Shown here: one piece after another, positions 1 to 40,445 of the stretch
How positions within the stretch are numbered: position 1 is the stretch's first letter
How the letters are laid out: each line of letters opens with the position of its first letter
Assembly: GCF_020509005.1 (NCBI RefSeq)
Contig: NC_063019.1
Coordinates: 4,216,001-4,280,000, forward strand
Direction of reading: 5' to 3'
Origin: Fulvia fulva
Lineage: Eukaryota > Ascomycota > Dothideomycetes > Mycosphaerellales > Mycosphaerellaceae
DNA: 64,000 nt
Position numbers and translations under genes: made by a program
Notes under the pieces: model-generated
Seen by the model: the letters and a program-made list of their open reading frames with translations, nothing else
What the model was told of the DNA's origin: nothing
The model's database searches: none

Positions 1-716
1 GTAGAGAGTCCGCTAGGCCTATAGAAGTAAGGTAAAGACCTAGAGCCTCGTAGAATAAGTAGCGAGCTACCTATAGGAGTAGGAATAGAAAAAGAGACTC
101 CCTAAAACAATAGGCCTAATAGTACTTCGAACCTTCTAGAGAGACAACTACTAACTATATAAGGACCTTACTAGGGCCGAAGTAAGTATAGCTATCTAAA
201 TCAGGTCCGAATATATCGGGTTAAGGGCCTATCTATTTAGAAGACACGTACTAGATATCGAGAGCTTAGCTTACTAATATAGCTACCTATCGTAAAACCT
301 AGAGTATATACTACTACAATACCCGTAGTAGGTAAGCGGTAGGGATACGTAGAGATATTAAGTAGAGAGAAGGGACTATAAGTCCCTTATTAAAGACAAA
401 GGTAACATCCGCCGGATTATACGGTAGATACTACGATAAGGTTTCTTCTAATAATTTAGGCTAGTAAAGGAGACGGAAGAGTAGCTAGATAAGAGGCGGA
501 AGCTAGAGGGGTTATAGATAGGGTAGTTATTAGGGTAGGCCTATAATACTAGCGTACCCTTAATAAGGAAAGCGTAAGGTATAGGGACGAGAGACAGGAC
601 CTATAGGAGAGAGGAGGGGTTTTTACCGACATAGTTTCCCCTTTATATATAGCAAACAAGATGGTATAGCTATATAGGCTATAGGGCACTATAACAGCTT
701 AATGAAATATCTATCT
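1..716 (+). mobile_element. LINE family B, 3' fragment, RIP-damaged
   Basis: This is the 3' end of a non-LTR retrotransposon. It aligns by eye with 14820-15526, which is the same family nested in LINE A1, and it ends in the same short ATCTATCT-type tail near 700-716. The 5' part lies outside the window. The sequence has almost no CpA or TpG and no open frame of useful length. It corresponds to the region downstream of the reverse transcriptase: the C-terminal part of ORF2 and the 3' UTR. The family assignment rests on the RT-bearing copy at 13755-15526. Confidence 0.7.
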
Positions 717-1216
717 ATTTGAATATACTAACTTAACGTTTAGAACAAATACTACTAGACTAGCTACTAGGCTAGCTACTAGGCTAGCTACTAGGCTAGC
801 TACTAAATAGGCTAACTTATTATTTAGAACGAAAGCTAATATACTATCTATATAAACCTAGCTACTTAAGGAGCTAGTTAAGATACTTATACTAAGGATA
901 AAGCCTTAATCTATATTAAGACTTTAACCCGTATAGGCTTTTTCTTAGTTCGTTTATTTTAACTATTTATATCTACGTTCTTAGCAAAAAGTTGGTCTTA
1001 TTAGTTACTCTCTACGCCTTTTTAAGCGCTGGTTTAATAGACCTACTATCTACTACTATTAGGTCTTTATTTACGACAAGAACGGGCTCTTTCTAGCTCT
1101 ATAAGGTCTTCTAGTACATCTAATTTAGGCTCTTCGTCTATAACGATAGCCACCTTCTTTTATTTTATCTTAGAAGTCTACTAGTATTTGTTAAAGTTAG
1201 TAAGTTAAAGACGTAT
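717..1216. other. AT-rich spacer without a gene; short 12-bp tandem repeat
   Basis: No coding region is visible. The stretch is TpA-rich and CpA-poor like the RIP-damaged transposons around it. At 760-805 the 12-bp unit ctagctactagg occurs three times plus a partial copy. It lies between the LINE B tail and the LTR of the minus-strand Copia. Confidence 0.5.
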
Positions 1217-1438
1217 TGAGAACAGGACACGAATTGCGTAGCCGTAAAAGATAGGAATTACAGATTATGTGAATGAAGAAGGACCTAATAGGATAGCGTG
1301 TATCTATGTACAGTATCGCTAGTTGATCGTATAGGTGTTTTAGGAGGGACAGCTGTACTCAGGACTTGACTAGCAAGTCCTGATTACTAATCCCCCCAAG
1401 CACCTAATGTTGACCCTATGACCTGCATATTCTCAACA
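1217..1438 (-). repeat. Putative 3' LTR of Copia C1
   Basis: The block starts TG and ends CA on both strands and is directly preceded, on the minus strand, by a purine-rich tract (gagtgggag, 1439-1453) like that before the 3' LTR of the intact Copia. About 222 bp, close to the 236-bp LTRs of the other family. No matching second copy was found in the window, so the outer boundary is inferred from the TG dinucleotide alone. Confidence 0.55.
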
Positions 1439-1441
1439 CTC

Positions 1442-4400
1442 CCACTCAGGTCAGAAGGTCTCAAACAATCCCTTATACAAGCTGGAGCTGCCTTACAAAG
1501 TTTTGAAACTGCTGGCCATTAAGGGGCTTAGTCAGCCCATTAGCAACCATGTCCTTTATGTAGCAGTAATCCACTACAATCTTCCTTTGCCACCAGAGAT
1601 TCCTGACATAGTGGTATGCCACATCAATATCCTTTGACCTGTCATGGACATGGGCATCTTTGACAAAGGTCAAAGCTGCTTGGTTGTCACCCATAAGCTT
1701 CACGGGTCTCAGCTCATCAACAGTACTTTTGCTTGCCTTGATCCTAGGTTGGAATGAACACTCTCCAACCAGGTCAGGACACATCATCTCTCTAAGGACT
1801 GCAGCAAGAAACTGTGACTGCTTGGCTGCTGCATTCATGGCCATGAACTCAGCCTCTATTGTTGATGTAGCAACAGACTTCTGCTTCCTACTCATCTAGG
1901 ACATAGGTGATCCACAAAGGAACTACACATGTCTAAGGATTGAGACTCTGTCTGCCTTGTCTATGGCATAATCAGAATCTGAGTATCCCTAGAGAATACC
2001 TCCTCCTCTTCTGTACATCAAGCCCAGGTCTGGGTATGATCTCAGATATCTGGATAGTTTCTTCAAAGCTCTAAGATGTTGCTTTGAAGGGTCAGCAACA
2101 TATGAGCTGATTCTTCTAAGGGGGAAAGCAAGGTCTGGCCTTGTCATTGTCATTAGCCACATCCAGGTACCATTGCAACTCTGGTACTCCTGTTTGTTGC
2201 ACCTCTCATCCATAGTAGCTGAAGGTCTTAGATCCTCATAGCTGTCTATAGGTAAGAGTGTGGGTGTGGCCTTCTCTGGAGAGATGCCTATCTTAGCAAG
2301 GTTAGTTTGGATATAGTGTCCTTGATCAAGCTTTACAGTACCTTGGGACCTGTTTCTTGTAATCCTCATTCTAAGGATCTTCTCAGGTTCCCTAAGATCT
2401 TTGATCTTGAACACTCTTCTAGATTCAGCCTTAAACCACTGAACATCTGACAGCTTTGGAGCTGCAATGGGGATGTCATCCACATGGGTGAGGACCATGA
2501 TGTCTCTTCCTCTGTGGACGAGTAGGCATGGATCCACCTAGGACTGGGTGAATCTAATCTGTTCTAGCTTAGCAACACAGAGCTTGTTCCAATCTCTAGC
2601 TGCTTGCTTCAGTCTATACAGGCTTCTAAGGACCTTGAAGACCATATTTAGTGGAATTTCAACACCTAGGGGTGGGATCATGTAGATGTCTTCAAGAAGG
2701 CTGCTTTCGGTGAAAGCATTGTTCACATCCACCTGGTGCATCTCAAGATCTCTCTCACATACTACAGCCATGAAGACCCTAAGCGTATCATGCCTAACAG
2801 TAGGTGCAAAGGTCTCTTCAAAGTCAACACTATATTTCTGTGAAAACCCTCTTGCAACTAGTCTTGCCTTGAACTTTTGAATAGCTCTACTGATCATTCT
2901 TTTCACATCAAAAACCCACTTAGATGTAACCAGGTTTGCACCCCTTGGTGGTACAACTGGATCCAAGGCGTTGTTGCTTCCTAAGGCAATAAGTTCCTTC
3001 TGGATTGCCTCTTTCCACATATGTCCCTAATTGGGGTCTCCCACTGCCTCCTTATAGGAATTTGGGATTGGCACTTCCTGCTGGTAGGCTATGGCCTGCC
3101 TAACAGCAGCAAATGCATATCCCTCTACATCATTCAGGATTTCCTCAACCTAGCTCATAGTTAGATCAAGATGAAACATCTGAGCAATCAATGCCCTATA
3201 ATGCTTGGCTTCATGCTCAGCAGAGCCATCATCTTCATCCCCCCTTGACCTCTAGTTGCCTGCAAGCTGAGGTGGCTGTTGAGGTTGATCCTCCTGAACA
3301 AGTTCCTCGTCCTTTCCTTTTCTTGGAGTCCCCTCTACTCTAATCTTCTGGTACTCTCTAACGTCTTTTGGAGGTTGGGGAAGTTGCACAAACAGAGGCT
3401 TTGCCTGGAGCTGCTGTGGCTGCATTGATGAACTGGAGACCTGAGCAGGAGGTCTTCTAACGGGGTTTCTCTTTAGGGCTCTGCTTGACTGGTTTGTGAA
3501 GGTGATGCCAAGATCCATATCACCCCCCTTCTCATTCTCAAACCAGTCAACTTGCCCGTGTGTTTTGATGGCTTTCATGTCAGGCTCCTAGAAGAGCCAT
3601 TGCTTTGTGGTGTTCTCTATATAGCCAACAAAGACAACTTCTTTACCCCTATTTATAAGCTTGTCACTTCGCAAGCCTTGAGGTTGGGATCTCGGGTCTA
3701 CATAGACCACTGCTTTACATCCCTAGACTCTCAAATGGTCAACTGATGGTACCTGGCCAGTGAAGGCTTCTTCTGGTGAAAAAGTAGTACTATCTATCAT
3801 TGGTCCATTTGGAAGTCTGTTTCTGACCACAGTTTGAGCAATAAGGGCCTCTAGCCAGAATTCAACTGGCATATTTGAGTCCTCAAGCATAGCTCTCACT
3901 GTATTCTCAGAGGCTTGGATTGACCTTTCCACAGGTCCATTCTGAAGTGAGTTGTAGGCATCAGTTGTGTCCATCTGAATGCCAAACTCCTTCTCCCACT
4001 GTTTTAGCAAGGAAAGAATTTCCCTTGCACCATCACTACGGATTGCAGATAGAAAACACCTTGAGCTGTTCTCTACCTGAACCTTCCATTCCTTTAGAGC
4101 TGTAGGAGCATCACTCCTAGCCTTCAAAGGGATTACCCACTTCTTCCTTAAGAAGTTGTCTGCAATCTCAAGCCAGTACTTGAAGCCAAGTCTTGAGACT
4201 GCACCTTGAAAAGGCCCACAGATGTCAATAGAGATGAGGGCCAGGCTCTCTCCTTTCCTCTCTGTGGCAGGTCCTTTGAACTTCCTCATGTTTGCAAGGG
4301 AGCAGACCTTGCAGTTCTGGTGTTCAGAAGGAACAGGAATGGGATCTTTCTTGTCAGTGACTCTATGCAGGTTTCTTAGCAGTCCCTTGCTAAGGTGTGC

Positions 4401-5930
4401 ACATCTTCTATGCTATAGCTCCCACTGGTCCTGGGACTCAGTGGCAGTCATAGCCTGTTCCAATTCACACTCAAAGTGTGTACCTAACTTGGACAGACTC
4501 AAGTCATGCTCCTATAGAGAGGCATATGCTTGAGGCATAGCTTCAAGCTGCTCTGAAACACTTTAAATGAATGGAACACCCCCTCCCAGCTTTGTCTAGA
4601 CAACAGGGTTTCTAGAAAGGGATTTGGGGGTGAAACTGGGTGGTTGGACAGCAAACTGTTGGCTGAACTGATTCTAAGAAACAAGGCTAACTCTAAGGCC
4701 AGGAACAAACAAAACATTCTTCAAGACAATCTGCTTCCCAGAAGGACCACCCATCACTGCACTCCCCTCATGTGTGGCATGTAGGTAGCCACCCCCAACC
4801 TTGATCCACTTCCTCTTCTGAAGAGGTTTCAGGGTCCTGAAAAGTGAATCCTGGTCAGTCATATAGGATGAAGCACAAGAGTCAAGCAACCACTCTGAGG
4901 AGGGGTACTTGCTTTTGGCTTCCACAGTTGAATGGGCAACCTCATCAACTTCATCATCCCCTGATGGTGTCTCAGGGTCTGATGAGTCTTCCTGGGTTGC
5001 ATAGGCTCTTCCTTGTAAGGTCCTTCATCACCACTAGGATGTCCCTCAGGCTTGGGGATGGGGACCTCCTTCTTGGTGGTGATGATTGTCTCTTTGCAAC
5101 AGAGGTGTTTCCTCTGTTGAGTTTGTCCTTCGTGACAGCATGCTTGGCTCCAGAGAGGTGTGGGCAATCCTTGATCACATGATCACCATCACAGAGATGG
5201 CAGGTGATCTTGCCCTAGAAACCTCTTCCTGCAAACATTGCTGTTTCCTTAGATGCAACTTCCAGCCTGGATTCATGTGACTCAAGCAGTTGTAGACAAT
5301 CTTCATATGACAGTCCTGGCTAGGCCAGGATAGTGTTCTTGGTCTCAAGATACACCTCAGGCAGGGCTTGAAGCAGATGCTTCAGCTTCCTTGTAGGCTC
5401 TCTGTAGTGAGCCTCTGCTGGGTCAACTTCAGCAATCCTTCTTACAAGATTGCCAAGGTGGACCCAGGCCTGTCTGATGCTTATGCCATCTATCATTCTG
5501 AAGTTGATCAATTCTTGAACAACTGTCATTGTATATGCAGCATGAACCTTGCTGTACTTTGCCCTCATCTTGAGCTAGATCTCTCCAGCTTGTCTCATCT
5601 CTAACACCTCATCTTAGTCATCTCGTGAAAGGCAGATGAAGATCTTATATCTTGCCTTTACATTTGCTTTCCTCCTAACTGGACTGTATCTTGACTCTTC
5701 GAGTCCAGGTAAGGGATCTGATGACTTAGATGGTGTTGAGGAGCTGGGTGTGCTTGATAATAGATGGCTTCTATCTACAACCCAAAGCACATCTTGAGCT
5801 TCAAGATGGTCTTGTATCAATGAGAACCATGTCCTCTAGTTGTCCTTGATTAGGATAGGTGCTGCTCTCCTCCTACTAAGGGTGCTATGTCCAGTTTCCT
5901 CTATGCTTTTATATATAGGACAGGATGGCT
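1442..5930 (-). pseudogene. Copia gag-pol polyprotein, broken by amber codons
   Basis: A polyprotein gene that once encoded capsid, protease, integrase, reverse transcriptase and RNase H for Copia retrotransposition. Visible pieces are the gag knuckle CHLCDGDHVIKDC near 5150-5215, protease WLLDSCASSYMT near 4870-4900, integrase with SIDICGPFQ and NGPVERSIQ in 3723-4289, RT with KARLVARGFSQ in 2538-3020 and LTHVDDIPIAAPK in 1989-2537, and RNase H with SVATSTIEAEFMAMN in 1473-1895. The frame is conserved across the breaks, and the breaks I inspected are CTA on the plus strand, that is TAG on the coding strand. This is expected if CAG or TGG codons were hit by RIP. Not functional as it stands. 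Confidence 0.85.
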
Positions 5931-5945
5931 GCCTACAGAAGAAAG

Positions 5946-6396
5946 GTATTCGTTCGTACGCGATCGGATCGATAGGAGGTGAACCGAACGCGAGGTTGAT
6001 AGTGGAGAGAATGGCTGTCCACTAGAAAGCGAGGAAAGTCGGTCGTAAGGATCGTGTTTCTAAGACACTGTCTGTAGCTCTCTTAGGGGAGGGTGTTCTG
6101 AGACACTACGGCTCTCTTAGACGGAACAGTTAGTTAGTGAGGACAACGCGATGTCCTGAGAGCAACTCTTCCTAGTAGGCTCGCCCACCTTTCTAAGGTA
6201 TTGGCACAGGCTTCTCTTCCAACCCTCTAAGTTGGTCAAAGTCTGACAGTGCCTCACTAGGCTCTTTCACGACTAACATACACCTACAGCGAGCTGTAGT
6301 TTCCTATATAATGCGGAGGCGGCCTCCAGTCTGCCCTTCCTTTTGGTATTGTAGAGGAATAACTATCACGACTTCAATCTATAAGACCTAAAAGCT
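5946..6396 (-). other. Probable 5' leader of Copia C1
   Basis: The stretch lies between the gag start and the primer-binding site on the minus strand. No open frame is visible. It keeps CpA and TpG and shows no similarity by eye to the leader of the intact Copia at 19268-19715. It could alternatively be a separate insertion. Confidence 0.4.
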
Positions 6397-6413
6397 AACC
6401 CGGGCTCATAACC
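6397..6413 (-). other. Primer-binding site matching initiator tRNA-Met anticodon arm
   Basis: On the minus strand this reads GGTTATGAGCCCGGG, immediately inside the LTR end. It is complementary to the anticodon stem-loop region of initiator tRNA-Met (which contains CTCATAACC), the half-tRNA priming mode known from Drosophila copia and yeast Ty5. The same sequence follows the left LTR of the intact Copia at 19267. Confidence 0.65.
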
Positions 6414-6589
6414 TGTTGAACAGGTACGGATTGATGGCAGCGGAGTGGAGTAAGAGATCAATCTTCAACTGACTAATAACACAATCAAAACATTGGTTCC
6501 TGATATGTTGCTACATGCTCGTGCTATTAGTCAGTTGAAGATTGATCTCTTACTCCACTCCGCTACTATCAATCCGTACCTGTTTAACA
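6414..6589. repeat. Inverted LTR fragments forming a palindrome
   Basis: The stretch 6414-6477 is the LTR end of the 19032-24648 Copia family on the minus strand. It is joined directly to a plus-strand fragment of the same LTR (about 6476-6589). The last ~64 bp of each fragment form inverted arms (6414-6477 and 6526-6589) around a spacer of about 48 bp. The arms are nearly perfect, with differences of C/T and G/A type. This is a rearranged junction, not a normal LTR. Confidence 0.75.
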
Positions 6590-8420
6590 AGACGCTTATT
6601 TATATAAAGACAGTCGTAGATAGTATACTAGTAAGATATACTCGTTATTAACGTAAAGATACTAGAGTAAGGCTTATCTTATTAATCTAGGTTTTCTACT
6701 TATTCCTAACGGTCCTTTATTAATAAGAAAAACTAGTCTACTAAGCTCGAGATAGGAAAACAAAAGATCTCTATTATAAGGGAGTAATATATTATATAGA
6801 GTAGTTAAAGGAGGCCTTCCTTCTCTTTATTATAAACGTAAATATTAAATTATTTAGCCTAAAGCTAAGACTAAGAGAGTAGCTTTTCTATAAGACCGAG
6901 AAGATTAAGTCGAGAGGTATAGATCTAGTTCTTAATACCGGAATAGTTAGACTCGATATAGGACGTAGTCTAGATACTATATTATAGCTTCTTGCTTAAA
7001 GCGACGGTAGTAAAGTTATATCTATAGGGAATTTATATACGCTAAAGATAGCTTTACCTCTTTAGCTAGTATACTTTAATCTCTTCTAGCTTTTCATTAA
7101 AACCGGACTCTATTAGGCCTTAGTAGAGGCTAGTAAAAAACGCTTAGAACTCTTAAGTCTTTTTAGCGTTAACAAAAACCCTATCTTTGTTCTACTCCTA
7201 CTTAAACTCGTCTCGATAGTATATAAGGATATCCTTTTAGAGATACTATAGATATAGCCGTATTATTATATCGGGAAAGATAGCCTCTATTATAGCGAGA
7301 TAGCTACGATCGTGATCGGTTATAAGGAGCTTAGAGTCGGGGATTCGTTCTTGATAAAGGATCTCTTAGAGGCTTCTAAACGCCTAGATAAATATTAGTA
7401 TTTCCTTCTTTAATAGTAACGTAAGGCTAAATTAAAGCGTCTTATTCGATCTAGAAACGCCGTAGATATTAAATAACGGCTTATTATACTTATTTATCTT
7501 ATATATAGAGTTGTAGATAAGAATATCCGGATCATAACGCTAGATCTTAAGCGCTTTAAAGTAAATAAAAATAAGCTAATTAGGTCTATTATTGTTACTA
7601 ACGCTATAGCGATAGTAATAGCTATTACGGTCGAGAAGTTCGAGCGTAGTATTAACTACTATATACGTTACGAGAATCTTAAGCCGTAGCCTTTATAAAA
7701 TATTAGAAATGTCTTTTTGTTTTTAATAAGCCGTAGGGAACTTCGTTTTAATTAATAAAAGCGACTCTATAACGCTAATACCGTAGGCTATATACTCTTT
7801 AATAAGAGTAATAATAGTGTTATTCTGTTTAAAACGTTGCTAGGTTATCTTAATCGTATTAATATCGTTAAGAAGATAGGAGTATAGCTTACTTATTTCG
7901 TTCCTAATATACTTAACTATATAGGTACTATTAGGGTAGTAGAATTTATATAGTAGGATTAGATAGCCTCTCTTATACAATACTATTCTATATTACCGCT
8001 ACCTATTTACGAGCTTTTAGTAGTTATAAGTCTTGCCTCCTCGTCTATAACAAAAAGTCGTTTATCTTAAACTATCTTTCTTAACCTTCTTTGAATATAT
8101 AATAATAACCTTAACTTATATCTATAGCGTCGTATCTACGTTTATATTATGTCTCTTAATATATCTTTTATAGCGTAGAAGTCGTTATAGTATTCGGCGT
8201 CTTAATTGCTATTAGTATCTTTACTCAAAACGAGGTCCTAATTATTATCTATCTCTTCGTCTAAGACGGTATTATTATTCTAGGTTCTAGGCTATTACTT
8301 AGGCTAGCGCTATATTAAGGTAAGTTTAAAGAGGTTATTGTAATAAAGAATATAGTTATTGTTAATACCGAAAGACTAAGGTAGATACGTTAGTAACAAG
8401 ATAGTAGGGTAGAAGGATCA
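6590..8420 (-). pseudogene. RIP-destroyed Mutator-like (MULE) transposase
   Basis: Conceptual translation of the minus strand gives long conserved-frame stretches split by amber and ochre codons. The recognisable part, near 7200-7480, reads NKYNKPLFNIYGVSR, then LLITDHDRSYLAAIEAIFP, then a segment like the conserved His-containing block of MULE transposases (here RLYLQYL..KDIL). An upstream part near 7880-8080 resembles a FAR1-type zinc-binding domain (RGGKTYN..., CKRG-like, now Tyr where Cys is expected). MULE transposases are DDE enzymes that cut and paste DNA elements. Terminal inverted repeats were not identified. The identification is by motif only and would need a profile search of the de-RIPed sequence. 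Confidence 0.5.
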
Positions 8421-8640
8421 TAGGATTAAAGAAATACACGACGACGCGACAGTAGTAGTAACGTTAGAGATAAGCGATAACATTGCGTTAATAACAAATA
8501 TAACGATATATATAAGTCATATATAGGGTCTACCTTTAGTTAAGACTAGGGTCTGCCTATAGACTCTATAGAATGTTCTCGCCCTCCTAGCTTTGATTGA
8601 TAGAAAGCTTATATATATTTCGCTAGGGTATAGCAGTCTG
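8421..8640. other. Spacer; transition from RIP-damaged to normal sequence
   Basis: No gene is seen. CpA and TpG reappear gradually here and are common from about 8600 on, marking the left edge of an island of unmutated sequence that carries the repeat-protein gene. Confidence 0.4.
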
Positions 8641-9096
8641 CTCACGTCGTAGAGGGTCGACTGGCCGTCGTCATTCCACATCTAAGTTGAGCTTGGTCTC
8701 AACATCTACCGAGGAAGTTAGATAACATGAACACGCCGATAGCCCCATCGCCCAGGTGTAGAAATTTATGATCGAGCATAGCTTGCCTGAGTCCAAGCTT
8801 TATCGTGCGCATGGGACGCAGCGTGTACTAGCATACCTTGCCTGTGTATAGACTCATCCTGCGCATGCGATGCAACGTGTGCTAGGATCGGTATCCTAGT
8901 GCGCGGTCCACGTGGGTCCGTAGCTCTTAACAACATGCGGCAGGCCGTTGACTCTTGTTCGTCCACCTAGCTGACTATCGTGGCAAGTTACATATTTAAG
9001 AACAGACGATTCTCCGTCGCAGCAGAGAAATTAACCCCTTCGCTCCAGCACAAAACCGTTCCACATAAAATCCAGCTTCGCTTGTGATCCATCACA
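8641..9096 (+). promoter_or_regulatory. Promoter and 5' UTR region of the repeat-protein gene
   Basis: This unmutated upstream region has a TATA-like TATTTAAG at 8993-9000, about 100 bp before the ATG at 9097, and a pyrimidine/CA-rich leader. It also holds an imperfect 55-bp direct duplication (8782-8891). The small minus-strand open frame here (8766-8966) has no recognisable features. Transcription start and regulators cannot be determined from sequence alone. Confidence 0.45.
8782..8891. repeat. Imperfect 55-bp direct duplication upstream of the gene
   Basis: Two adjacent copies start with cttgcct at 8782 and 8837. Each contains a gcgcatg core followed by acgcagcgtgt or a close variant. 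Copies differ at many positions, so the duplication is old. Possible upstream activating element or simple tandem duplication. Confidence 0.6.
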
Positions 9097-10144
9097 ATGA
9101 AGTCAAGCGCCCTATTCATTATGATCGCCACTACCGCTCTTGCAGTTGCAGGACCAGTCGGACTCGAGTCTGGCGCTCGGATGCCGTATCACAGGTAGGT
9201 TGAGTTTTGTCTGCAGCGATTCAATCACTGACGCCAAACGTTACAGCCGATGGGCAAAAAGAGACCCCGTCGCCGAAGCGCACGCGGACGCAGATCTATA
9301 TAGCGGGTGGCAAGCGAAGAGGGATGCTGTCGCGGATAAGGATGCGGCCCACACGGACGCAGGTCTATATGGCGGGTGGCCAGCGAAGAGGGATGCTGTC
9401 GCGGATAAGGATGCGGCCCACACGGACGCAGGTCTATATGGCGGGTGGCCAGCGAAGAGGGATGCTGTCGCGGATAAGGATGCGGCCCACACGGACGCAG
9501 GTCTATATGGCGGGTGGCCAGCGAAGAGGGATGCTGTCGCGGATAAGGATGCGGCCCACACGGACGCAGGTCTATATGGCGGGTGGCCAGCGAAGAGGGA
9601 TGCTGTCGCGGATAAGGATGCGGCCCACACGGACGCAGGTCTATATGGCGGGTGGCCAGCGAAGAGGGATGCTGTCGCGGATAAGGATGCGGCCCACACG
9701 GACGCAGGTCTATATGGCGGGTGGCCAGCGAAGAGGGATGCTGTCGCGGATAAGGATGCGGCCCACACGGACGCAGGTCTATATGGCGGGTGGCCAGCGA
9801 AGAGGGATGCTGTCGCGGATAAGGATGCGGCCCACACGGACGCAGGTCTATATGGCGGGTGGCCAGCGAAGAGGGATGCTGTCGCGGATAAGGATGCGGC
9901 CCACACGGACGCAGGTCTCTATGGCGGGTGGCCAGCGAAGAGGGATGCTGTCGCGGATAAGGATGCGGCCCACACGGACGCAGGTCTATATGGCGGGTGG
10001 CCAGCGAAGAGGGATGCTGTCGCGGATAAGGATGCGGCCCACACGGACGCAGGTCTATATGGCGGGTGGCCAGCGAAGAGGGATGCTGTCGCGGATAAGG
10101 ATGCGGCCCACACGGACGCAGGTCTGTATGGCGGGTGGTCATAA
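9097..10144 (+). CDS. Secreted Kex2-processed repeat protein (candidate RiPP or pheromone-like precursor)
   Basis: Two exons, 9097-9194 and 9247-10144, with a 52-bp intron (GTAGGT donor, CTGAC branch-like site at 9228-9232, ACAG acceptor), give a 331-residue protein. Reading through the intron hits an in-frame TAG at 9196, which supports splicing. Residues 1-19 form a signal peptide (MKSSALFIMIATTALAVAG). A short pro-region ends at Lys37-Arg38. A divergent first unit (39-58) is followed by 11 identical 23-residue units and a truncated 20-residue last unit that ends GGWS without Lys-Arg. Each full unit is DAVADKDAAHTDA followed by GLYGGWPAKR. Known family logic: Kex2 cuts after Lys-Arg in the Golgi, Kex1 trims the basic pair and dipeptidyl aminopeptidases may shorten the acidic N-terminus. 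I infer 11 copies of one secreted peptide carrying GLYGGWPA. No Cys is present, so it is unlike Sordariomycete alpha-pheromones; the Tyr/Trp-containing core could suit a cyclised dikaritin. No tailoring gene is nearby. Function unknown. Confidence 0.82.
9195..9246 (+). other. Predicted 52-bp intron of the repeat-protein gene
   Basis: The exon 1 boundary is CAG/GTAGGT and the acceptor is TTACAG at 9241-9246. A CTGAC branch-like motif lies 14 bp before the acceptor, a typical geometry for short ascomycete introns. Splicing joins a split Ser codon (AG + C) and puts the signal peptide in frame with the repeats. An alternative donor at 9199 would leave the in-frame TAG in the message. Confidence 0.8.
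9323..10141 (+). repeat. 69-bp tandem coding repeat, 12 units
   Basis: There are eleven full 69-bp units plus a final 60-bp unit. Copies are almost identical at nucleotide level. The two changes I found within the repeated codons (CTC at the Leu codon near 9918 and CTG in the last unit) are silent, and the last unit also changes Pro to Ser before the stop. Every unit keeps its CpA and TpG sites. Confidence 0.95.
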
Positions 10145-10177
10145 TGAGTGAGCTTAACGTTCAAACATACGTTAATA

Positions 10178-13100
10178 GATAGATAGATTTGTCATTCCCC
10201 TGTTCTAGGACCATATTCGGCCTATATAGGTATATGTCTATTGTTATGTACAAAGGGAAACCCGAATAGGTGAAAACCCTTCCCGCCCCCGACTACTCCT
10301 TATCTAGATTAGCTTTCCCTCTGAACGTACGTAGTCTATGTCACTACCCCGTTAGCCCCCGCTCCTAGCCGGTCTCGTCGCGCTACGCCGTGTCCTCTCT
10401 TCCTATACTACTCCTACTAGGCGGTACCGTTCTAGCTAGGCCTTCTCTAGTATCTAGTTCGTAATGCGCCGTAGGTCCTTAACGTTATTAAGAAGTGCCC
10501 TAATCGTCCGGTTCCTCGCCTTTACTATCTACTCCCCCCTTCCTAGCGACTACCTCGGATAGACGAGGAGTACGTACCGTATATTCTAGGAGTAATAGCC
10601 GTAGGGGTAGCTAGTATTCGTGTATTCTAGAACCTTCCTCTATAATAGGTACCCCTAGAGGCCGATATGTTCGCTTCGTAGTTAGGTTACTATACTACTC
10701 TATACCCTCGTAAGGCGGTAGTAGATAAGCTTCGGGGGGGGTGCTTAACCGCGGATTTTGTAGCTAACTATTCCTTAGGTTATACCGCTAGCTAAGGGCG
10801 TCTACTATGCCCTATAACCTAGTTATTCTACCTCTCTTTCTATAGTTACTCTATAAACGATTTCTTACCCTTCTATTATATTACTAGCTATTCGTCCCTT
10901 ACCCGGTAGTTCGGCTCGTTTCCGGGTCGAATGCCCTAATACGCTAGTACTAATTTGCGGGCCCTTACGACTATACTAGCGATGACCTTCTATACTAGGT
11001 ACTATACCGACTTACCTAAGTAGAAGGTCTATAGTCCCTAGATATATAGGTCGATCGGTAGTATAGCGGTCTCGTACTTAAGTATCCTTATTAGTGTCGA
11101 CTTATATACCCCGGTAACCTTCCTTAGGCATTAGTTTTAGATCTTCGCTAGCGCCGCGACGAGTCCCTTTAATAGGTAGGCCCTCTCGCCTAAGGACTAT
11201 ACTTAGCTACTATAGGTAAGGACTGGCCGTATAATAGCCGTATATAGAAGTCGTAACTACCGAAAGTCCGCCCCCTATATAGACGTAGTAAGCCTCTAGT
11301 ATAATGCTATATTCTGTTTAGCTTTCCGTAATATTGTCTATACGTACTTCCTCTACCGTAGCGCCGGGTCTACCTATAGTCCGAGGATCCTAAGCTAGTT
11401 TACCGGGTTAGTCGTATACCCCTATATCTAGATAGAAGCTTATATATTATAGAACCGTAGCCGGCGCGTAAAGTATATTAGATTATACTTTTCTAGGGTA
11501 AACCGAGCTCCGTACCTCCTAGCCTAGTCCTCGTAGATCTTGTGCTTCTCTTCTAGTAGCCTATAGTTCTCCTTAGTCGAGGAAGACTACGCTAGGATAT
11601 TCGTGTCGTCTACGGAGCCGCTCGTAGCGGTGTTCTAGGATTCTAGGGCTAGGAGTAGCGTCGCCGTAAAGAAGAGGAATAGAATAGGTACTAGCGTTAA
11701 GCCTTACGGGATTCTAGTATAGACTACTTAAAATAGGCTTTTATACTAGCCGACTAGGATCGACGTACTACGGTTTTAGAGGTAGGACCGTACGAAGTTA
11801 ATAAGCTACGTAGGGAGTCCTTTCGACCTTAGGATATAGAGTAGCCGCGGGTATAACACGTAGTCGAAGGCTCCCGATATGTCTAGACTAAGTAAGGATG
11901 CTATATTGTCCCTATTCTTATACTAGATAGCCTTTACCTAAGAGGTAATAAGTTCTATCGTAGATAGCGTCGATCGCTATAGGCGCGTACCTATCTAGGT
12001 GTCCGGGAGTAGGGAGTATTCCTCTACCGCCTCGGAGAGTCTCGTTATAACTAGCTTCTTAAGCGCATTCCTAAGAGTATTAAGGAGCGTAATTAGGCGG
12101 TACGACTTTACCTACGTATAGTCTTCCTTTTACGGCTTACGTAGGACTACTATCGTCGATTGTTTAAATACTATCGGGTAGTATCCGGTCTATAGGTAGG
12201 CGTTAAAGATCGCTACGACTACTAGGGCTAGTTAATCTCTATACTTCTTTAGTAGCTCGTTCAGGATCCTATCCGGCCCCGGGGCTTTCTTCGCCGGTAA
12301 CTTCCTAAGTATAGCGGTAACTTCTCCCTCGGACACCTCCTATTAGGCCGCGATACTAGGGGCTAGAGGAGTAGAGCTATTTATATCGCTTAGATTAGCC
12401 TTGACTAGGGGCGGAAAGAACTTACTAGCTAGTAGACGCGCCTTAGCCTTAGGGTCGCTAACCGGGCTACTAGGCAATTATAGCGCTAGGATAGAGAAGG
12501 AGGGGCCCTATATAGTGTCCTATCGGGCCTATCTCGCTAGCTTCTATATCCTCGCTAGCTTACCGGCGATTTCTTCTACTATAGCCCTCTAGCCGACTAC
12601 TTTCTCCCTCCGTATTAGAGCTTTCTTCTATTAGTATACCTCCCTATATACGTTCTAGGCCTCCTCGCTATAGCTACTCGTCTATACCCGGCGGGCTCTC
12701 CTTACTTCTCTTACTACCGTAGTATACTTCGGCGTCTAGTATAGTTAAGACTATATTATTAGTTAGGTAAGCGGAACGTAATATAAGGTCGCTTTTCTTA
12801 TTTCGTCTATTAACCCTTAGACTGCCTCGTCTATCTCGTCTTTACTATTATATTACTACTACGCGATCTAGACTAGCCTCTCGGAGTCGTCGAGGTATAC
12901 CTAGATATTAGCCTAGTAGGCCTTTCCCTAGTTTAGCTTAGGGGTTCTCGCTAGTATATATTATATCTATATCGTAACAGAGGTCCTGACTAGTATATAG
13001 TCTAACGACGCCTCGAGTTTATGTTCGATCCTATAGTAGGTTACTATATAGTAGTAGCTATCTAAGATCTAGGAGAGGTCGATCGTGCCTTAGAGTCCCC

Positions 13101-39167: not shown

Positions 39168-40445
39168 ATGGCAGCCCAGGCTACGGTACTAACGGCGCCT
39201 ACGGCCCTACAGGCGAAGCCCCCCCAAGACAACTGGCAGCAACTTATAGAGGACGCAAAAAGCATGGAAACTAACGATCAGCTCCCTTACCGGTCTCTAC
39301 AGGTAATGATCACTCAGCTACGCACGGCGCTTGTACTGTCGTATCACCGAGGGCAACAAGAAATGAGGACGACGTCCCAGGCGATTAGCAAGGCCACCCG
39401 GAATCAACACCCCCATAGCTGGGCATCGGTCGCGGCATCGATACCAGGCCCCCGCCTAACGCACGATGCAGTTACGATCCGCATTGTAGCAAAGGAAGAC
39501 CAGGCCGAAGTTGCGAAGCTATCGAACAAGGAGCTCGCCCAACGAATTAACCAACCAGGGGTGGTCGCAGTGAACCAACAGTCTAACGGCACTCTACAGA
39601 TCTATACTAGCTCTGCTACTGCTAGGAGGCACCTAGAGGCACAGCCACAGTGGGCATCTAAGGTTGCGGCATCAGCGAAGGTCTCAACGAAACAATTCAC
39701 GATCCTAGTCCACGACATGCCTAAGGAGTTTGACCCAACCAACCAGGGTCACCTACGCGCTCTCCAAGAGGACAACCCGGTCACTCTTAACTCTCCAATC
39801 CAGAAGGCGACTTGGCTCCATAGGAAATGGCCAGAAGGCAAGAAGGCCTCGGCGCTAATAGTATGGCTACAAGACGCGAAAGCGGCGGATCTAGCGATAG
39901 AACAAGGCCTGGTCTGGCAATACAGCCTCAAGACAGTAGAAAAGCACTCCTCATCCTTTCGTGTCCTCCAATGCTTCAAATGCCAACAGTATGGACACCA
40001 AACCTACACGTGCACAAACAAGCAGGCCTGCTCGAACTGTGCAGGAGACCATATGTCTAGGGACTGTACATCGACTACGAGACGGTGCGCGAACTGTCCG
40101 GGGCACCACCCATCGTATAGTGCGGAATGCCCACAGCGGAAACTAGCGAAAAACAAGGCAATCACAAACAGAACCGTCGCCCCAAGATTCTACGGCGACC
40201 GTGAGGCTAGCCCACACCGGAACCAACTAGCGGCGGTCGGGCACAAGCGCCCTAGGGCCGAGAACGATGTAAAGGATGCGCAGCCTAGGGCGTACGGGAG
40301 GCCACGTGCTCTGCTAGCTGCGGCGAGGGAATCTAACCAGGCCCGGCTCCCCTTTAGTACACAGCCGATAGGCGTAGACCAGGACGCACAGGGCAGTAGG
40401 ACACAGGACGATACAGAGGAAATGCTTGTCGATGCCGATGACTAG
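39168..40445 (+). CDS. LINE ORF1: nucleic-acid-binding Gag-like protein
   Basis: 425 residues. ORF1 proteins coat the LINE RNA and escort it to the target. Three C-terminal CCHC-type zinc knuckles are visible: CFKCQQYGHQTYTC from Cys269, CSNCAGDHMSRDC from Cys288 and CANCPGHHPSYSAEC from Cys307. The N-terminal half has no motif I can name. The C-terminal tail is basic and proline-rich, then acidic. The start has a good context (GCAATGGC) and follows a 230-bp leader. The stop overlaps the start of ORF2 by 20 nt, in a +1 frame. Confidence 0.9.
   Translation: MAAQATVLTAPTALQAKPPQDNWQQLIEDAKSMETNDQLPYRSLQVMITQLRTALVLSYHRGQQEMRTTSQAISKATRNQHPHSWASVAASIPGPRLTHDAVTIRIVAKEDQAEVAKLSNKELAQRINQPGVVAVNQQSNGTLQIYTSSATARRHLEAQPQWASKVAASAKVSTKQFTILVHDMPKEFDPTNQGHLRALQEDNPVTLNSPIQKATWLHRKWPEGKKASALIVWLQDAKAADLAIEQGLVWQYSLKTVEKHSSSFRVLQCFKCQQYGHQTYTCTNKQACSNCAGDHMSRDCTSTTRRCANCPGHHPSYSAECPQRKLAKNKAITNRTVAPRFYGDREASPHRNQLAAVGHKRPRAENDVKDAQPRAYGRPRALLAAARESNQARLPFSTQPIGVDQDAQGSRTQDDTEEMLVDADD

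Follow-up and report, generated by a model that had tools for sequence, protein, structure and literature searches.

In Cladosporium (Fulvia) fulvum Race 5, which causes tomato leaf mould, a gene on chromosome 8 (C8) encodes a repeat-containing precursor protein and lies among transposon remnants, raising the question of what kind of peptide it encodes and which genes, if any, work with it. The window, that is the whole stretch of DNA analysed here (64,000 nucleotides, C8:4216001–4280000), holds the gene at positions 9097–10144; positions without a prefix refer to the window. A sequence-only reading had proposed a RiPP or a signalling peptide, and the balance between the two now shifts towards a RiPP, because UstYa genes are the nearest recognised host neighbours of the precursor and are parted from it by an identifiable transposon insertion. 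The precursor is probably of the KEP/UstYa (dikaritin-type) kind, with an apparently new core.

The gene consists of two exons on the forward strand. Exon 1 (9097–9194) provides the ATG, the signal-like MKSSALFIMIATTALAVAG and the start of the pro-region in an open frame, and is followed by an intron of 52 nt (9195–9246), predicted from its GTAGGT donor, CTGAC branch-like site, and ACAG acceptor. Exon 2 (9247–10144) contains the end of the pro-region, SRWAKR, all repeat units, and the stop codon TAA (10142–10144). Spliced as 9097–9194 plus 9247–10144, the frame is open over 331 aa, and the unspliced frame hits TAG at 9196–9198; the two-exon structure and KR-ended pro-region proposed earlier are thus exact to the base. 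In order, the protein comprises MKSSALFIMIATTALAVAG, PVGLESGARMPYHSRWAKR, DPVAEAHADADLYSGWQAKR, eleven copies of DAVADKDAAHTDAGLYGGWPAKR, and a terminal DAVADKDAAHTDAGLYGGWS before the stop. By eye, its N-terminus has the charge, hydrophobic stretch, and A-V-A site typical of a signal peptide. The 331 residues include 13 KR sites and, as first noticed, not a single Cys.

The repeat array was detected by Tandem Repeats Finder as 12.4 copies of a 69-bp unit with 99% matches and a score of 1674, and is not a product of chance. Translation resolves it into a divergent first unit of 20 aa, DPVAEAHADADLYSGWQAKR (9263–9322), eleven 69-bp units each encoding DAVADKDAAHTDAGLYGGWPAKR with the core GLYGGW (9323–10081), and the last unit, DAVADKDAAHTDAGLYGGWS, with the stop codon (10082–10144). 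At the DNA level, ten of the eleven units are identical and the remaining one carries a single silent change, a near-identity that suggests recent amplification or homogenisation. The earlier description of eleven identical 23-residue units and a final variant is right on both points, but it missed the divergent first unit (DLYSGWQA-KR), so that the cores number 13, namely 12 GLYGGW and one DLYSGW, all with Tyr and Trp. Of the conserved eight residues, GLYGGWPA, that it had proposed as the core, only [GD]LY[GS]GW is common to all 13 units. The core is better taken as the hexapeptide GLYGGW, since the sequence past Trp varies (PA, QA, or S-stop), with the final unit terminating directly after W-S. 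KR closes every unit except the last. By definition, a KEP has three or more tandem repeats that are 8 aa or longer and lie between dibasic sites (Umemura 2020, PMC7329392), and the eleven 23-aa units with their two variants fall within this definition; the KEP architecture recognised at the outset, with a signal-like start and KR-separated units in one frame, is present. Ste13-like dipeptides form an unbroken run in unit 1 (DP-VA-EA-HA-DA before DLYSGWQA); in the later 12 units, the X-Ala run breaks at DK, after DA-VA. The unbroken X-Pro/X-Ala run, found in unit 1 (9263–9322) alone, is possibly the trace of a pheromone-like ancestor. Further frames are left open over the array, at 9204–10148 (+, another frame), 9225–10142 (−), and 9241–9906 (−), with 221–315 codons, because the repeat length is divisible by three.

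The sequence-only reading had suggested looking for UstY (DUF3328) genes near the locus, and the outcome was positive. A profile search with PF11807 (UstYa) across the whole assembly (67,169,167 bases, 14 contigs) gave 41 matches at the exon level, three of them at C8:4206743–4208767, left of the window. These belong to two intact genes, the nearest host genes recognised: UstY-1 (C8:4206614–4207801, + strand, four exons, 340 aa) and UstY-2 (C8:4209085–4208061, − strand, three exons, 304 aa), both Pfam-confirmed as UstYa (DUF3328) and with frames open throughout. Today, 16–18 kb separate the precursor from the two genes.

The two UstY proteins are unequal. It is reported that CctR is a membrane-bound, lumen-facing homodimer in which the motif HxxHC(x)nHxxHC holds two coppers, an arrangement proposed for the DUF3328 family (PMC12435403). 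This motif is complete in UstY-2 (H165/H168/C169 and H200/H203/C204), and its four His and two Cys are invariant in 20 aligned proteins, UstY-2 itself and 19 of the 34 other proteins matched. In UstY-1, the motif is incomplete, with Arg replacing the equivalent of H200, and the protein also deviates at columns 107, 114, 166, 225, 235, and 236, where the UstY-2 group shows no variation; UstY-1 may not function as an ordinary enzyme. A protein search with UstY-2 returned 35 proteins, the first being the identical CLAFUW4_12641 of Fulvia fulva, with relatives of 58–61% identity in Zymoseptoria brevis, Pseudocercospora fuligena, and Sphaerulina musiva. The predicted model of UstY-2 is of moderate quality (mean pLDDT 69.7) and places a helix at residues 34–62 and the motifs within helices 162–177 and 195–215. 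By sequence, no solved structure matched UstY-2 at E 0.1, and the best of seven Foldseek matches of the model had E 5.5, so no structural claim is made past the helix at 34–62 and the position of the motifs in helices.

Adjacency alone is no proof that UstY-1 or UstY-2 acts on the GLYGGW peptide, and its value depends on how often such neighbours occur. As a rough figure, the 24 UstYa loci with 18.5 kb on either side cover about 1.4% of the genome, and the surroundings of the five loci with at least two UstYa genes, a count that includes the C8 locus, cover 0.3%. A KEP test beside other UstYa genes of the same genome found none in eight sequences (six of 3.3–3.6 kb and two pieces); one weak four-residue match in the piece from C12 is not KEP-like by eye. 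Small as it is, this control gives no support for a general co-location of KEP and UstYa genes in C. fulvum. Across the 154 kb of C8:4146001–4300000, a similar simple KEP test was passed, among 977 stop-to-stop ORFs of at least 50 aa, only by two frames of the array, so that the scan of this region revealed no second KEP with which the UstY pair could be partnered.

The sequence between the precursor and UstY-2 explains their present distance. The regions upstream of the two genes share a 65-bp inverted match (56/65 bases alike, 86%), which was considered as a regulatory element and rejected, because it forms the end of a repeat element whose family is also represented on C2 and C7. The C2 copy (C2:833202–846263, about 13 kb) extends from CACAGAGTC... 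to ...GACTCTGTG and is flanked on both sides by a perfect 8-bp duplication, ACGATCTG, independent of the C8 site. At C8, the 8-bp duplication GAATGTTC lies at 8571–8578 on the right and at C8:4209579–4209586 on the left; in a fixed register, 8 bp would match perfectly by chance with a probability of 1.5e-5. Since inverted ends and a perfect 8-bp duplication are found here and likewise at the C2 copy, the 14,984 bp between precursor and UstY-2 (C8:4209587–4224570; in-window part 1–8570) are best explained as a single insertion that contains further, nested elements. According to its RIP profile, the insertion is largely RIP-mutated, and it contains ORF pieces of a nested Copia element (1989–4289) recognised by their Pfam domains. 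The label "hAT-like" given to it here derives from the 8-bp duplication and the inverted ends. The duplicated string agrees one base further at the C8 site (GAATGTTCT), and the common string at C2 has ten letters (ACGATCTGCA); with CACAGAG/TACAGAG taken as the first bases of the element, the duplication is 8 bp at both sites. As GAATGTTC is near-palindromic, a longer inverted end was considered in its place; 8/8 direct versus 6/8 inverted matches and the differing flanks at C2 and C7 speak against it. For the C7 copy, no left end was identified; the flank near its end and the left flank of the C8 insertion both carry CCTGGAAT. A 300-bp palindrome upstream of UstY-2 (C8:4209160–4209460), pieces of which also lie upstream of UstY-1, was likewise rejected as a shared promoter element, as it is a dispersed foldback element with at least 104 matches genome-wide.

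With the insertion computationally removed, UstY-2 and the precursor point away from each other with 1,019 bp between their start codons, and we infer that the two genes were formerly divergent neighbours at a distance of about 1.0 kb. This original cluster layout, deduced from the insertion, is the clean result of the analysis. The 518 bp upstream of the ATG (8579–9096, + strand), presumably the promoter of the precursor and formerly shared with UstY-2, are without RIP signature (TpA/ApT 0.97; (CpA+TpG)/(ApC+GpT) 1.13). If the dikaritin-type reading is right, the locus shows how a transposon can hide a RiPP cluster from fixed-distance rules, the partner genes having moved from about 1 kb to 16 kb apart while they stayed intact.

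Dikaritins are RiPPs that derive from KEPs and are cyclised by UstYa homologues (review, PMC10512285). Features that mark them are found at C8, including a KEP precursor (with the signal judged by eye), an adjoining UstYa gene, the UstY-2 motif, and Tyr in the core. It is reported that 1758 of 7878 KEPs (22%) have UstYa genes among their 15 closest genes, on average 3.09 genes away, and that Tyr occurs in 65.6% of the repeats of UstYa-accompanied KEPs versus 38.2% of the others (Umemura 2020, PMC7329392). We consider it likely that the gene encodes the precursor of a small dikaritin-type RiPP cluster, in which a UstY enzyme of the copper type oxidises or cross-links the core GLYGGW. Observations that weigh against this reading include that relatives of the precursor were not found although those of UstY-2 were, that no tyrosinase lies near, and that UstY-1 is without one motif His. 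If expressed, the precursor protein would go into the secretory pathway, and cleavage by Kex2 behind each Lys-Arg would yield 13 peptides with [GD]LY[GS]GW, 11 of them ending in GLYGGW-PA before trimming. UstY-2, with both HxxHC motifs and as a lumenal enzyme anchored in the membrane, may then, either by itself or together with UstY-1, cross-link or otherwise oxidise the core, where Tyr and/or Trp are the most likely sites. General peptidases would remove the flanking residues, and the product would then be secreted; its role as a secreted bioactive peptide is a guess. The partner of a cross-link is not predictable, because the dikaritin links described in the sources used here (Tyr-Ile, Tyr-derived, Phe-Leu) are all without Trp. 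A Tyr-Trp or Trp-centred cross-linked hexapeptide, formed through the unequal pair with UstY-2 contributing the full two-copper site and UstY-1, lacking one ligand His, serving as its partner or for a different oxidation, is a tentative idea that we regard as doubtful. The Trp-involving cross-link and the unequal UstY pair are the surprising possibilities of the locus.

The same neighbours bear on the strongest rival, in which the KEP peptides remain unmodified linear chains that serve as a secreted signal or effector, with the UstYa pair serving something else or another substrate. This is unlikely but deserves attention, given that 78% of KEPs have no UstYa neighbour (Umemura 2020, PMC7329392) and that the clean X-Pro/X-Ala run in unit 1 is as seen in Ste13-trimmed peptides. 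However, the later 12 units interrupt the run at DK, and a Ste13 signature is reported to be absent from toxin-type (UstYa-linked) precursors (Le Marquer 2019). That the UstYa genes are the nearest recognised host genes, with UstY-2 about 1 kb off before the insertion, also argues for a dikaritin-type product rather than a linear peptide.

The surroundings of the cluster suggest a second rival, a relic intact in sequence but silenced by the RIP-mutated repeats around it, so that its product is no longer made. The Race 5 genome has 67.17 Mb on 14 chromosomes, with 4,340,606 bp in Chr8 (Zaccaron et al. 2022, PMC9453070). RIP indices were calculated in non-overlapping 1-kb windows with the thresholds of the same study. 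The cluster lies in an island of 111 kb (C8:4176001–4287000), bounded at about 4176 kb, where gene-dense RIP-free sequence ends with a DUF2786 gene, and at about 4287 kb, where such sequence resumes with tRNA-endonuclease and CLP1 genes. Within it, 79 of the 111 1-kb windows are RIP-affected; the 32 not marked by the indices comprise five in the UstY islet, one at the precursor, 23 in four retrotransposon blocks (two Copia, a LINE, and a Gypsy), and three isolated ones at 4188, 4193, and 4198 kb. A RIP-mutated dispersed repeat, with 89–96% matches at three other places in a 124-kb region, occupies 10172–11000; it starts 28–31 positions past the stop codon of the precursor and reaches at least 11000, where the query ended. 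The precursor could be silenced because the insertion stands 518 bp upstream and this repeat about 30 bp downstream. On the other side, none of the three frames or their splice sites is damaged, most motifs are preserved, and no RIP signature is seen in the three genes or in the sequences that precede UstY-2 and the precursor. Moreover, candidate effectors of C. fulvum are themselves reported to be enriched in gene-sparse regions, as are UstYa-domain genes (adjusted p 0.01) (PMC9453070). We therefore regard a silenced relic as quite improbable.

The precursor and the two intact UstYa genes are the only host genes recognised in the island. Among ten ORFs scanned in the weakly RIP-affected stretch at C8:4185–4199 kb, which includes the three isolated 1-kb windows, one is a retroelement RNase H and nine had no Pfam match at E 0.01; five further ORFs from the UstY islet and its left edge, and another two from the same place, had no Pfam match either. 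No peptidase, transporter, or regulator was recognised among the part of the island ORFs that was scanned. In the window, the earlier claim of a single host-type gene in 64 kb is borne out among the 11 ORFs of at least 150 aa. Four of these are overlapping frames of the precursor locus and seven were scanned against Pfam, six of which match reverse-transcriptase, integrase, or related retroelement domains, two of them (in the Copia remnant at 1989–4289) below the Pfam cut-off. The seventh (39168–40442) had no Pfam match at E 0.001; a CCHC pattern seen by eye and its place before a LINE ORF suggest that it is the first LINE ORF.

An alpha-type mating pheromone precursor of C. fulvum, the third alternative, would share the KEP layout and the Ste13-like dipeptides, which at C8 are those of the first unit, and such a gene has been reported for the species (Le Marquer 2019). 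According to this study, pheromone peptides contain two Cys in Dothideomycetes outside the Pleosporales and PYG[LM]P[IV]G in the Pleosporales. The precursor at C8 has neither of these and differs further in its UstYa neighbours, which hardly any pheromone KEP is reported to have (0 of 227 yeast-type and 3 of 216 filamentous ones; Umemura 2020, PMC7329392). On these grounds, the pheromone identity was rejected and is very improbable. The reported pheromone gene was not located by two genome-wide DNA patterns, WCxxxGQxC (7 matches) and CxxPGQxC (26 matches); all were translated, and on visual inspection no match is a pheromone repeat flanked by dibasic sites. That the array is a chance repeat or an artefact of assembly, with no gene behind it, is hardly credible, for although near-identical tandem arrays can be mis-assembled and further frames of the array are open too, the signal-like start, the in-frame intron, the KR of each unit bar the last, and the UstYa neighbours all fit one frame, in a published assembly of PacBio and Hi-C data with Illumina polishing (PMC9453070).

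The dikaritin-type reading was further compared with known systems. The ustiloxins, phomopsins, and asperipin-2a have in common with the C8 precursor a signal-type start, many Kex2-separated units with a Tyr core, and UstYa-family neighbours, but no counterpart of the GLYGGW core was found among them. The core of the ustiloxin/phomopsin subtype is given as EDYXI (Le Marquer 2019), which GLYGGW does not fit. In addition, ustiloxin and phomopsin clusters are reported to have a tyrosinase (PMC7329392), whereas none lies near the C8 locus; of 20 matches genome-wide, both on C8 are at 483–484 kb, about 3.7 Mb off. Dikaritin cross-links are described as Tyr-Ile, or Tyr-derived in asperipin-2a, none of them on Trp, whereas the GLYGGW core contains Trp. 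Secreted repeat precursors with a Tyr-containing core from a plant-associated fungus are also seen in the epichloecyclins (GigA), but those are nonapeptides with an Ile-Tyr link according to the dikaritin review, as opposed to the proposed hexapeptide at C8. In Venturia inaequalis, likewise a plant pathogen, putative dikaritin clusters with KEP and UstYa were predicted from sequence; four dikaritin precursors there are reported to peak in mid-late infection.

Victorin is made from the precursor VicA, with the core GLKLAF, in a Dothideomycete plant pathogen. By description, it resembles GLYGGW in having six residues with a Gly-Leu start and an aromatic end, a multi-core Kex2-type precursor, and a Dothideomycete plant pathogen as its producer; the middle core residues are unlike, and victorin is described in the review as chlorinated with a Phe-Leu cross-link.

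The failure to recognise the core in the sequence-only reading is matched by the collections searched. In a word-based protein search, none of the 7999 best word-sharing candidates scored for the full 331-aa precursor matched at E up to 1, and none of 1168 candidates for its first 127 aa did at E up to 10; this search requires shared 5-residue words and similar length, and distant or much shorter or longer relatives can escape it. The collection contains Fulvia fulva, since the first match of UstY-2 is the F. fulva protein itself, and yet no entry of the precursor was found in it. GLYGGW was not found in the protein collection or in the literature searched, a scope that does not take in the KEP lists supplementing Le Marquer 2019 and Umemura 2020. 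Among the literature matches listed, none describes a RiPP in C. fulvum; a review of repeat-containing effectors names the species for Ecp6 (PMC4617103). If the dikaritin-type reading is true, a peptide product with a new core has been overlooked in a plant pathogen that has seen decades of effector research, and its precursor, two UstY genes, and one core in 12 of 13 units would offer a simple three-gene system to dissect the role of each UstY.

Other UstYa loci of the genome differ in content. Several UstYa matches lie together at C13:1685190–1702660 with tyrosinase matches at C13:1695336–1696086, and this group is probably a separate cluster of the ustiloxin/phomopsin type in C. fulvum; no KEP-like ORF and no long tandem repeat were found in C13:1686001–1696000. 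On C12, an 84-bp tandem repeat of 2.7 copies lies between UstYa matches, at positions 4395–4615 of the piece examined.
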